Source of the DNA: Bacteroidota bacterium | GTDB lineage: Bacteria; Bacteroidota; Bacteroidia; Chitinophagales; BACL12 | Length of the DNA: 56,503 nucleotides | Assembly: GCA_029571985.1 (NCBI GenBank) | Contig: JAKQVC010000268.1 | Span: 1 to 56,503 of the forward strand | Reading direction: 5' to 3' | Notes under the pieces: generated by a model | Seen by the model: only the letters and a program-made list of their open reading frames with translations | What the model was told of the DNA's origin: nothing | Database searches by the model: none | Part shown: positions 52,369 through 56,503 of the stretch, piece by piece | How the letters are laid out: each line of letters opens with the position of its first letter | Numbering within the stretch: position 1 is the first letter of the stretch | Program-made: the position numbers and the translations under genes

Positions 52369-53193
52369 ATGTTGCATATTTATTCTAACCCTGTGCAGAT
52401 TACGCCGACTATTCAAATTGGCAATGGCAAACCGCTTTTACTGGCCGGTCCATGTGTAATTGAAAGTCGCGACTTGTGCATGCAAGTAGCCGAAACCATG
52501 ATGCATGTGGCTGAGAAAACGGGCTTTTCTTATGTTTTTAAAGCCTCTTTCGACAAAGCCAACCGCACTGCAGGCGGCTCTTTCAGGGGTGGAAGTATGG
52601 AAGAGGGTTTACGCATTTTACAGGAAATCAAGGAAACATTGGGCGTAGCACTCGTAACAGATATCCACCTGCCAGAACAGGCAAAACCGGTGGCGGAAGT
52701 GGTGGATCTGTTGCAGATTCCTGCATTTTTATGCCGGCAAACCGACTTATTACTTGCAGCCGGAGCCACCGGAAAAGCTGTAAACATTAAAAAAGGGCAA
52801 TTTATGGCCCCGGAAGATATGGCCTATGCGGTTGAAAAAGTTGGATCAACCGGCAACCCTAACTCCCTCCTTACCGAGCGTGGAGCCAGTTTTGGCTACC
52901 ATAACCTGGTTGTAGATATGCGCTCGTTACCCATCATGCGTCAGTATGCGCCCGTGCTTTTCGATGTAACCCATAGCGTGCAGATGCCGGGCGGGGCAGG
53001 TGGCAAAAGTGGCGGAAAGCGTGAATTCGCGCCATATCTGGCTAAAGCAGCAGCCGCCACAGGTGTTGACGGCTTTTTCATTGAAACACACCCGAATCCC
53101 GACCAGGCCCTGAGCGACGGTCCTAATATGATTCCTCTTTCAGACATGGAAACGCTGCTGAACAAATTATCAGCTATTATACAGATAGGCTAA
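52369..53193 (+). CDS. kdsA: 3-deoxy-8-phosphooctulonate synthase
   Basis: KdsA condenses phosphoenolpyruvate with arabinose 5-phosphate to make Kdo-8-phosphate for lipopolysaccharide. The 274-residue product has the family motifs [54 protein letters not shown] and [17 protein letters not shown], ending with [13 protein letters not shown]-terminal C in GPCVIES fits the metal-dependent subclass. It is first in this plus-strand stretch and is followed by the winged-helix regulator. Confidence 0.97.
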
Positions 53194-53312: not shown

Positions 53313-53339
53313 AAAATGAGTAAATTTGTTACTCATTTT
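53313..53339. promoter_or_regulatory. 27-bp perfect palindromic operator candidate over the -7 element
   Basis: Two perfect 11-base arms, AAAATGAGTAA (53313-53323) and TTACTCATTTT (53329-53339), flank the 5-base centre ATTTG. The -7 element TAAATTTG (53321-53328) lies inside it, straddling the left arm and centre. It is 7 bases upstream of the regulator start. Confidence 0.8.
53321..53328 (+). promoter_or_regulatory. TAnnTTTG -7 element of the winged-helix regulator gene
   Basis: TAAATTTG is an exact match, 19 bases before the GTG start, embedded in the palindrome. Confidence 0.6.
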
Positions 53340-53346
53340 TGGCGCG

Positions 53347-53889
53347 GTGTTAGAATCTCTTATTACCTCGAGAACCAGAATCAAGCTGTTGCTGAAATTT
53401 TTCAGCAACACACGTTCATCTGCCCATTTACGCGGACTGGCCAAAGAAATGCATGAGTCGACCAATGCGGTCAGACTGGAACTCAACAAATTATCCAAAG
53501 CAGGCTTTTTGATTTCCTATGATGAAGGCAACACCATTCAATATAAGGCAAACGAAAAGCATCCTTTATTTCCTGAATTAAATAGTCTGGTCAGAAAATA
53601 TCTCGGCATTGATAAAATAGTAGAGAATATTGTCAACCAAATAGGCGAAATCAAATTTGCCTTAATCACCGGTGATTATGCCGAAGGAAAAGATACCGGC
53701 ACAATTCAATTACTGATTGTAGGCGAAGTAGATCCAGAACGCTTGCAGTATTGGGTACAAAAAACAGAAGCGCTGATTAAACGCAAAGTAGTAACCACTG
53801 TGGTGGACGAGACTGCATTTGCACAAGATAAAGCATCCGGCATTTTAGAATCGGCCATTGTTTTGTGGTCGAACGGAAAGGCCGGTTAA
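53347..53889 (+). CDS. Winged-helix transcriptional regulator with nucleotidyltransferase-like C-terminal domain
   Basis: The 180-residue product has an N-terminal winged helix (about 1-70): TRIKLLLKFFSN, HLRGLAKEMHESTNAVRLEL (recognition helix) and GNTIQYKANEKHPLFPEL (wing). The C-terminal half has IGEIKFALITGDYAEGKDTG and LLIVGEV, like the G-D/S-Y/F region of MNT-type nucleotidyltransferase folds used as sensors. GTG at 53347 is chosen because an earlier TTG lies within the palindrome. In Bacteroidota such regulators often precede surface-sugar genes; here it precedes a NeuB-like gene by 64 bases. It probably binds the palindrome at its own promoter. Confidence 0.8.
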   Translation: MLESLITSRTRIKLLLKFFSNTRSSAHLRGLAKEMHESTNAVRLELNKLSKAGFLISYDEGNTIQYKANEKHPLFPELNSLVRKYLGIDKIVENIVNQIGEIKFALITGDYAEGKDTGTIQLLIVGEVDPERLQYWVQKTEALIKRKVVTTVVDETAFAQDKASGILESAIVLWSNGKAG

Positions 53890-53953
53890 AAAAATAAAAA
53901 AATCAAAGGCTTACTTAGCACCTATGTGACTGAGGAAGCGAAGCTGTGAAAGT

Positions 53954-54835
53954 ATGTTTACATTTAATTATCAGCCGCCCAAAATCATTGCAGAAATTGG
54001 CTGCAACCATATGGGCAATTTTGACATTGCACTGGAACTTATTCGTTTAGCGAAAGAATGCGGTGCTGACTATGCAAAATTTCAAAAGCGGAATCCACGT
54101 GAATCCCTTTCAGCAGATCAATATGCGGCACCACACCCGGAACCGTGGCAGAGTTATGGTGATTCATATGGTCAACACAGGGAGTTCTTAGAATTCTCGC
54201 TTGAGCAGCACACTGAATTACAAGCCTATGCAAAATCCATCGGCATAGGATACACAGCTTCCGTATGGGACATGACAAGCGCACAGGAATTAATTTCCTT
54301 GCAACCTGAATTTATTAAAGTGCCTTCTGCTTGTAATAATCAAACCAATATACTCACCCTTTTACGCGATGGTTATTCAGGAGATGTGCATGTTTCAGTT
54401 GGCATGACAACAACCGAAGAAACAGATTCCATCATACAATTATTTGAAGAAACAGGTCAGGCGAAAAACAGATTAGTACTGTATAGCTGCACCAGTGGGT
54501 ATCCAATAAAATTTCATGAAATATGTTTACTTGAAATTCAAAAATTATATCAGCTATATGGTTACCGTGTTAAAGAAATCGGATTTAGCGGCCATCATTT
54601 AGGCATTGCAGCTGATATTGCAGCTTATACGTTAGGGGCACGTTGGATAGAACGCCATTTTACAAAAGATCGAACCTGGAAAGGAACTGATCATGCAGCG
54701 AGTTTAGAAATTCCGGGATTGCAAAAACTTGTACGTGATTTACATCATATGCATGAAGCATTGCAATATAAGTCAGAAGAAATACTTCCGGTGGAAGCTA
54801 TTCAACGAACAAAATTAAAATCCGGTAAGCAATAA
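53954..54835 (+). CDS. N-acetylneuraminate synthase-like (NeuB/SpsE family), without SAF domain
   Basis: The 293-residue protein has the NeuB barrel motifs IIAEIGCNHMGNFDIALELI, GADYAKFQKRNPRES, YTASVWD, IKVPSACNNQTNIL, VSVGMTT and IGFSGHHLG, ending with HFTKDRTWKGTDHAASLE. Family enzymes condense phosphoenolpyruvate with a hexosamine-type sugar to give nonulosonic acids such as sialic, legionaminic or pseudaminic acid. The usual C-terminal SAF (antifreeze-like) domain of about 60 residues is absent; the frame ends soon after the barrel. The exact sugar is unknown. The next gene starts 4 bases after the stop. Confidence 0.85.
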   Translation: MFTFNYQPPKIIAEIGCNHMGNFDIALELIRLAKECGADYAKFQKRNPRESLSADQYAAPHPEPWQSYGDSYGQHREFLEFSLEQHTELQAYAKSIGIGYTASVWDMTSAQELISLQPEFIKVPSACNNQTNILTLLRDGYSGDVHVSVGMTTTEETDSIIQLFEETGQAKNRLVLYSCTSGYPIKFHEICLLEIQKLYQLYGYRVKEIGFSGHHLGIAADIAAYTLGARWIERHFTKDRTWKGTDHAASLEIPGLQKLVRDLHHMHEALQYKSEEILPVEAIQRTKLKSGKQ

Positions 54836-54839
54836 GTCT

Positions 54840-55589
54840 ATGCAAACGGAAACACATGTTCAACATCAGGAAGTGCTCGCAATTATACCAGCCAGAGGTG
54901 GCAGCAAAGGACTTCCCGGAAAAAACACTAAACCTTTATGCGGACATCCGCTGTTAGCTTATAGTATTCTGGCTGCGCAAAAAAGCAAGTATATTACACG
55001 CATCGTCGTGAATACCGATGACCCGGAAATTGCCGCAGTTGCAAAACACTACGGAGCAGAAGTGCCATTTATTCGGCCCGCCGACTTAGCTGAGGATACC
55101 AGCACTGATTTAAGTGTATTTCAACATGCTATCGCCTGGCATTATAATGAAGAACAGTATCGACCAGATTACATTATTCAATTACGGCCCACATCTCCTT
55201 TGCGAAAAGCGGATTGGATAGATGCCGCCATTTCACTCCTGCACCAGTCAGAGGCCGATTCATTGCGCGTAGTAACACCGGCTCCCATTACACCATATAA
55301 AATGTGGCGGATTTCAGATACAGAAAAACCGATGCAGCCACTTTTACAGATTGATGGAATAGATGAACCTTATAATATGCCGCGGCAATCACTACCTCAA
55401 ATATTTTGGCAAATAGGCACATTGGATGTTATTCGGACTGCAATTATTGAAAATGGCAGCATGAGCGGTAAAAATATATTACCCTTTATTGTAGATGCCG
55501 CATATGCAGCAGATATCGACGATTTACACAGTTTCATAGAAGCAGAAAAAAAATTGCAACAATTGGATTGCCTTCGATTTGATGGATAA
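54840..55589 (+). CDS. Acylneuraminate cytidylyltransferase-like protein
   Basis: The 249-residue product activates a nonulosonic acid with CTP. It shows the NeuA/KdsB-type motif IIPARGGSKGLPGKN (about residues 14-28), VNTDDPEIAAVAKHYGA, the phosphate-site ALAEDTSTDL-type run (DLAEDTSTDLSVFQHAI), and QLRPTSPLRK. It is close to NeuA. The gene overlaps the next start by 8 bases, so translation is coupled, and follows the NeuB-like gene by 4 bases. Confidence 0.9.
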   Translation: MQTETHVQHQEVLAIIPARGGSKGLPGKNTKPLCGHPLLAYSILAAQKSKYITRIVVNTDDPEIAAVAKHYGAEVPFIRPADLAEDTSTDLSVFQHAIAWHYNEEQYRPDYIIQLRPTSPLRKADWIDAAISLLHQSEADSLRVVTPAPITPYKMWRISDTEKPMQPLLQIDGIDEPYNMPRQSLPQIFWQIGTLDVIRTAIIENGSMSGKNILPFIVDAAYAADIDDLHSFIEAEKKLQQLDCLRFDG

Positions 55590-56503
55590 ACAATCACCCA
55601 TATTAGTAGTAGGTGCCGGTTCTGTTGGAGAAAGGCATATTCAAAATTTGCTACATGCGGGCTATACAGACATACATGTTTTGCGACGTGCTGCTGGTCC
55701 GATGCGGCAGGTAGATGCACAATTAGTAACAACACATATCAATAAAGAAGAAGTAGCACATTGTGTTTGTGCCATCATATGTAATCCGACTTCCCTGCAT
55801 GCAGAAACAACAAAATGGTGTCTCTCGCAGGGCATGCATGTATTAGTTGAAAAACCTTTGTCGCATACATTAGCGCATTTGGATGAAATTCAGTTACTGG
55901 CAATGCAAAACAATTTAGTGGTGCAAGTTGCCTATATGATGCGCTATCATCCACACCTGCAATTGATTGCTTCGATTATTCGAGACAAAACATATGGTTC
56001 ACTGCAACGCATGGAAACGTATTGGGGAAGTTATTTACCTGACTGGCATCCATGGGAAGATTATCGGTCATCCTATGTCGCACTAAAGGACCTGGGTGGC
56101 GGTGTTGCCTTAACACTCAGTCATGATTTAGATGTGGTTAACTGGCTTGCGCAGACTCCCGTGCTAACCTATGCAAAAAAATATGCCTACTCGAACGAAC
56201 TTAACATCGAAACAGAAGCTATCGCAGATTTCGATATTCGCTATCAAAATGGCATTGAAGCACATGTGCATATGAATCTGCTGGACAAACCGCAGAAAAG
56301 GAGGTATCAATTCCAATTTGAACAGGCTGTTATTTCGCTAAATTTTTTCTCTGCAGAAATGCACATAGAAACAAAAACAGGCACTATCAAAGACATTATT
56401 CCAGATTTTGACCGAAACAATTTATTTGTGGATGAACTACAAGATTTTCTGAATCGCATAAGCCGAACCGAAAATCACAACCAATTTACAGCTCAACAAA
56501 TCC
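55582..56503 (+). CDS. Gfo/Idh/MocA family oxidoreductase (C-terminus beyond window)
   Basis: The frame starts with ATG at 55582 (inside the preceding gene) and stays open to the last base, about 307 residues so far. The N-terminal Rossmann motif is ILVVGAGSVGERHIQNL, and the family's EKP motif is present in LVEKPLSHT. The C-terminal domain includes LKDLGGGVALTLSHDLDVVN, whose histidine-aspartate pair is catalytic in many members. Such NAD-dependent enzymes in nonulosonic-acid clusters act on UDP-sugar or sugar-acid intermediates. It continues the operon. Confidence 0.88.
   Translation, partial: MDKQSPILVVGAGSVGERHIQNLLHAGYTDIHVLRRAAGPMRQVDAQLVTTHINKEEVAHCVCAIICNPTSLHAETTKWCLSQGMHVLVEKPLSHTLAHLDEIQLLAMQNNLVVQVAYMMRYHPHLQLIASIIRDKTYGSLQRMETYWGSYLPDWHPWEDYRSSYVALKDLGGGVALTLSHDLDVVNWLAQTPVLTYAKKYAYSNELNIETEAIADFDIRYQNGIEAHVHMNLLDKPQKRRYQFQFEQAVISLNFFSAEMHIETKTGTIKDIIPDFDRNNLFVDELQDFLNRISRTENHNQFTAQQI

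Follow-up and report, generated by a model that had tools for sequence, protein, structure and literature searches.

A conserved palindrome as the probable operator of a winged-helix regulator with a pseudo-nucleotidyltransferase domain at surface-sugar loci of Bacteroidota and allied phyla

Winged-helix repressors that regulate their own genes through palindromic operators are already known. Among the local controls of surface-sugar loci, UpxY/UpxZ and the invertible promoters of gut Bacteroides are the best described, and in the case of the EPS-associated MarR-type regulators a small winged-helix gene heads exopolysaccharide loci, as does the regulator described here. The ops element of E. 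coli has the sequence GGCGGTAGCGTG, and the consensus for transcriptional pausing is GG-N6-TGYG. According to PMC7819879, ops fits the pause consensus. The promoter consensus of Bacteroidota is TAnnTTTG, located at −12 to −5 (PMC9723704).

Here, we analyze a palindrome in a contig of a Bacteroidota bacterium (JAKQVC010000268.1), together with the genes that follow it; the whole stretch of 56,503 nucleotides is called the window below. In a preliminary description of this DNA, a perfect 11-bp palindrome with a −7 box inside it had been placed ahead of a gene for a winged-helix protein with a nucleotidyltransferase-like half, followed by NeuB-like, NeuA-like and Gfo/Idh genes in a surface-sugar setting. 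This picture holds up well. Both arms are exact over 11 bases, the box TAAATTTG is found inside the palindrome, the two halves of the protein are borne out by predicted structure and fold matches, and the subsequent genes are NeuB-like, CMP-sugar-synthase-like and Gfo/Idh genes on the same strand, while the Pfam matches of downstream genes identify the loci of the relatives as surface-polysaccharide loci. The description had also suggested autoregulation by a ligand-sensing regulator, an interpretation that is supported in part, with autorepression predicted from the position of the site on the −7 box and ligand sensing putative. We consider it highly likely that the winged-helix protein, whose gene starts 7 bp downstream, uses the palindrome as its operator; the protein would repress its own promoter and the surface-sugar genes on it.

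The palindrome (53313..53339, assigned to neither strand) has the mismatch-free arms AAAATGAGTAA (53313-53323) and TTACTCATTTT (53329-53339), with the five-base spacer ATTTG in between. Perfect arms of at least 11 bp with a spacer of 3-10 nt occur at three places in the window, i.e. at this one and at two others, in several nested registers, as compared to a mean of 0.17 perfect repeats of at least 11 bp in simulated windows of the same dinucleotide make-up. The exact word TGAGTAAN5TTACTCA is present once in the 4.0 Mb genome, namely at the palindrome of the window, and elsewhere in that genome no match with fewer than two mismatches was found. The part kept in relatives is the inner GAGTA-N7-TACTC with T or C outside it, which gives the conserved operator core TGAGTAAATTTGTTACTCA (53317..53335, assigned to neither strand) and the family consensus YGAGTAN7TACTCR. 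The AAAA/TTTT extension is peculiar to the window's genome. A search of Rfam around the palindrome and the ops-like element discussed below gave nothing near any gathering score. There is also a second inverted repeat, TGTTGCTGAAATTTTTCAGCAACA, with 10-bp arms at 53387-53410 within the early coding sequence of the regulator, and this one is terminator-like on the minus strand only.

The regulator gene (53347..53889, plus strand) starts, by homology and alignment, at the GTG codon at 53347 (MLESLITSRTRIKLLL...), 7 bp after the palindrome. On the basis of homology and predicted structure, the protein consists of an ArsR-like winged helix (residues 1-70) and a domain with the minimal-nucleotidyltransferase fold (residues 85-180). 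The assignment of the former as a DNA-binding domain is based on an AF2 model with a pLDDT of 89.9 and on structural matches, the ArsR-like fold being matched with Z ~11. Its predicted recognition helix spans residues 39-51 (53461..53499, plus strand), with residue 44 encoded at 53476-53478. No Pfam or NCBIfam model scores over its cut-off for the window protein; the ArsR/SmtB model NF033788 yields an E-value of 0.005 and 16.5 bits, below the cut-off of 55, and the metal-binding cysteines of the ArsR/SmtB metalloregulators are missing from a protein that contains no cysteine at all. Identity with the EPS-associated MarR-type regulators was considered as well, and dropped because none of the family members matches the corresponding NCBIfam model.

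The C-terminal half, when folded alone, reaches a pLDDT of 87.5 and adopts the minimal-nucleotidyltransferase fold, with the MntA-type antitoxins as its nearest neighbours. The superposition on 7bxo_E has a Foldseek E-value of 5e-5, a Z of 9.8 and an rmsd of 2.9 over 93 residues, and there is in addition a sequence match to the nucleotidyltransferase 2rff. The catalytic motif is eroded from GS ... DxD to GD ... IxD, with the first Asp present in 2 of 52 members and lost in 50. The window protein does not have the G-S ... D-x-D motif of an active nucleotidyltransferase, as T119 and Q121 occupy the places of both Asp residues of DxD. The members L023:6001-6540 and L073:6001-6540 retain Asp at the first DxD position (SSDID and SPDIE, respectively), which means that an active enzyme may be the ancestor of the family. 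The domain is probably a sensor or dimerisation module, and the ligand could be, e.g., a nucleotide or a nucleotide sugar.

In a scan of 84,980 genomes, 80 relatives of the regulator were found, ca 40-57% identical, which come from Bacteroidota, Kapaibacteria, Chlorobi and Marinimicrobia MAGs. The preliminary description had proposed to look for the palindrome at orthologous promoters; it is conserved there across all of these groups, and it covaries with the recognition helix. The exact GAGTA-N7-TACTC is found at −500 to +60 of the regulator in 55 of 86 loci. The remaining 807,541 positions of these loci contain 23 further exact occurrences, nearly all of which belong to the same loci and are situated further upstream of the regulator, before NusG-type genes, or before regulator copies on the opposite strand. 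When two loci are re-oriented, YGAGTA-N7-TACTCR is located upstream of the regulator relatives within 500 bp in 58 of 87 cases and within 1.7 kb in 72 of 87. Grouping of the proteins at 65% identity results in 26 clusters, 24 of which have the core site, and the other two (L036 and L051) have sites with one mismatch.

It should be noted that the search pattern itself dictates the ten core positions; the first base outside the core is T or C, and variation is seen at the inner bases. The reversed pattern is made up of different words and is a poor yardstick, and genomes with and without the regulator were therefore compared instead. Among 296 genomes of the phylum, YGAGTAN7TACTCR is present in 32 of the 40 that bear the regulator and in 68 of the 256 that do not (Fisher p 1.3e-10). 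Two further details of these loci can be mentioned. In L012 and L018, an additional operator half or copy, which is imperfect, is present ~20-25 bp after the exact one upstream of the regulator, and in Algoriphagus (L048, L054, L057, L061, L071 and L081) a short ORF, of the four-helix 23S-IVP type as judged by eye, is inserted between the operator and the regulator gene.

The strongest evidence that the regulator binds the palindrome is the covariation between the two, which was examined for 175 distinct regulators, 128 of them with an exact site, in an unbiased scan of all protein columns. For the inner operator base, i.e. base 6 of the half-site, the best column over the 128 regulator-site pairs is residue 44 of the predicted recognition helix, with a normalised MI of 0.33, the next column having 0.22. 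Proteins with V44 have A in both halves of the site (34 of 43), those with L44 have G in at least one half (45 of 59), and those with K44 have C (4 of 4). The window protein, with L44 and an A/A site, shows the minority pairing, which accounts for 13 of the 59 L cases. The covariation is partly confounded with phylogeny, yet close pairs support it: when the L proteins are paired with their nearest V relatives in disjoint pairs, 31 pairs go in the expected direction and 2 against it (p 6.5e-8), and among the pairs that are at least 60% identical the ratio is 10:1 (p 0.006). For the G count, the two best columns are residues 44 and 48, which are one helix turn apart, with 48 being the second. 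The site features used as controls (the outer base and position 7) select no recognition-helix residue. From the site conservation and the covariation with residue 44, we predict that the winged-helix protein very probably reads the palindrome. A regulator dimer would then place one recognition helix at each GAGTA half-site, with residue 44 touching the sixth base.

The −7 box (53321..53328, plus strand) is assigned on the basis of the sequence, its agreement with the Bacteroidota consensus, and strand asymmetry. In the dereplicated sites, TAnnTTT occurs inside the palindrome 12 times in the direction of the gene and once in the opposite direction, and a TTG 19-21 nt upstream is enriched (p 0.007). 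Both the asymmetry and the upstream TTG fit a Bacteroidota promoter; a full −33 box was not seen in the window. Judging from the −7 box, transcription would start near 53333, a position in the right arm. The operator encloses the box, and a dimer bound to it should thus exclude RNA polymerase, which favours autorepression. By repressing its own promoter, the regulator would also repress the surface-sugar genes read from it.

One could also envision that the palindrome is an operator but that the protein is an activator, or an autoregulator that does not repress and acts via distant sites only. This scenario has the merit that the site is 100-270 bp from the start codon in several relatives and that further sites are found before other operons. 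However, both the window and many relatives have the −7 box within the site, with strand asymmetry, an arrangement expected to block the polymerase, and we therefore regard it as unlikely. Besides the distant sites, what speaks against the autorepression reading is that several sites are only 19-24 bp from the start codon, where an internal −7 box would give a leader of just a few nucleotides.

In a more serious rival reading, the palindrome would not be a winged-helix operator but a hairpin, in RNA or in non-template DNA, by which a NusG paralog (e.g. UpxY) is recruited. The palindrome can be folded as RNA, with energies of −5 to −9 kcal/mol, and some copies of the site are situated 20-30 bp before a NusG-type gene; NusG is also the commonest family after the regulator (23 of 126 downstream ORFs with Pfam matches). 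The sites, however, track the winged-helix gene and not the NusG paralog. According to hand tallies, they are present in 10 of 16 regulator-bearing genomes that lack the paralog, whereas among the 52 genomes of family f37 with the paralog and without the regulator only 7 have them. Moreover, the site covaries with the winged-helix protein, and its outer and seventh base pairs are not kept complementary. The hairpin was accordingly rejected as very improbable. Finally, a terminator of kdsA or a chance repeat, although suggested by the position 120 bp past that gene, the A and T runs on either side and the similar repeats elsewhere in the window, can be dismissed as hardly credible, because the palindrome has just two G-C pairs and is not called as a terminator, and because it covaries with the protein and is conserved before the regulator also where kdsA is absent.

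With the palindrome taken as the operator of an autorepressor, the genes under its control can be considered. The upstream neighbour in the window is kdsA (52369..53193, plus strand), encoding KDO-8-phosphate synthase (above the cut-offs of NCBIfam TIGR01362 and NF003543). On the other side, and likewise on the plus strand, the first cargo gene encodes a NeuB-family synthase (53954..54835; Pfam PF03102, below the NCBIfam equivalog cut-offs), followed by a CMP-sugar synthase-like cytidylyltransferase (54840..55589; Pfam and NCBIfam profiles, nearest to PseF but below cut-off) and a Gfo/Idh/MocA-type oxidoreductase (55582..56503; Pfam) that is truncated by the contig end. From the 64-nt gap on the same strand, we infer that these nonulosonate-type genes are co-transcribed with the regulator.

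Among the relatives, 132 of 140 ORFs in the first three positions after the regulator are on its strand. The 126 downstream ORFs with Pfam matches are led by NusG, UDP-sugar dehydrogenases, epimerases, polysaccharide export, aminotransferases and ABC exporters. A NeuB relative is found in 1 of 86 loci, and the nonulosonate-type genes of the window are thus one cargo among many. KdsA upstream of the operator was seen in the window and in the distant relatives L006, L012 and L141, a gene order that is otherwise not conserved, with kdsA present in 3 of 86 loci. The genus g63 (L122-L133; genomes G131, G166 and G247) has two paralogous regulators and two operator types, with TTACTC and GGTACTC halves, respectively. 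There are 5-6 operators per genome in this genus, some of them before UDP-sugar dehydrogenase/Wza/Wzc-type and GDP-mannose/LPS operons (named by eye), which shows that the system can be a small regulon. The window's genome has a single operator site.

A second conserved element was found in the leader, between the regulator and the NeuB-like gene. It is the ops-like sequence TGTGACTGAGGAAGCGAAGCTGTG (53925..53948, plus strand), which is unique in the genome and ends 5 bp before the NeuB-like gene. It recurs in ~39 of 87 loci with the consensus TGKGASTGANNNGGCGRAGCYGTG, always on the regulator's strand; the sole minus-strand entry, in L007, has its regulator on the minus strand too. There are 107 distinct matches; an operator is located up to 1.5 kb upstream of 76 of them, and on the downstream side there is no operator in any case. 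Operator and element are separated by 36-60 nt, by a broader range of 92-253 nt, or by 585-665 nt, and in this longest class the regulator gene is in between. In G131, each of the five operators has its own element. The 12-mer resembles E. coli ops, and at least five of the six positions of the pause consensus fit in 57 of 76 copies and all six in 20 of 76; the copy in the window fits five of six. DNA folding gave no support for a hairpin in the element.

By hand tally of the regulator-bearing genomes, the element is present in ~11 of the 24 that have a NusG paralog and in 0 of the 13 that lack one (p 0.007, computed with 10 of 24; 3e-4 with a looser tally), a co-occurrence that is confounded with phylogeny. 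We hypothesize, from these sequence patterns, that the element may serve to recruit the NusG paralog. The only paralog found in the window's genome (L258, G000:C60) is on another contig, behind WlbA/WlbB-like LPS genes (assigned by eye), such that any action on the operon of the window would probably be in trans.

Taken together, these results could describe a two-stage control leader in the surface-polysaccharide operons of many Bacteroidota and allied phyla, a proposal that we consider about evenly balanced between right and wrong. The pseudo-nucleotidyltransferase winged-helix autorepressor and its operator would constitute the switch at initiation. Further downstream, mostly 36-60 or 585-665 nt from the operator, an ops-like pause element would, once transcribed, recruit a NusG paralog of the UpxY type for antitermination. 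If this is true, the element is the missing recruitment sequence of the Bacteroidota NusG paralogs. The consulted passages of PMC7593976, PMC7819879 and PMC12691694 define no recruitment sequence for UpxY, and relative to these the element is an explicit candidate for how the paralogs find their operons. In the literature outside subscription journals, we found no description of ops in Bacteroidetes, nothing relevant on the operator words TGAGTA/TTACTC, and no description of the pseudo-nucleotidyltransferase fusion, the cross-phylum operator or the recognition code. For surface-sugar loci of several phyla, the analysis provides a regulator and an operator that are defined by sequence, and the covariation adds a partial recognition code, V:A, L:G and K:C.

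Compared to the known systems, the leader element resembles the RfaH/ops and UpxY systems in its position in the leader of long surface-sugar operons and in its occurrence with a NusG paralog. It differs from E. coli ops in its sequence, which is GGCGRAGCYGTG here, and in the additional upstream TGKGASTGA block, and its reader protein is putative. The regulator has its best structural matches (Z ~11, over 81-88 residues) among the ArsR/SmtB autorepressors SmtB, CzrA, BigR, SqrR and NolR, with which it shares a palindromic operator on its own promoter. In contrast to these, it has no metal-site cysteines, no curated model above cut-off, and an extra domain of the nucleotidyltransferase fold. 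This C-terminal domain has the fold of the minimal nucleotidyltransferases and MntA antitoxins, but here the DxD motif is eroded and the domain is fused to a DNA-binding domain.
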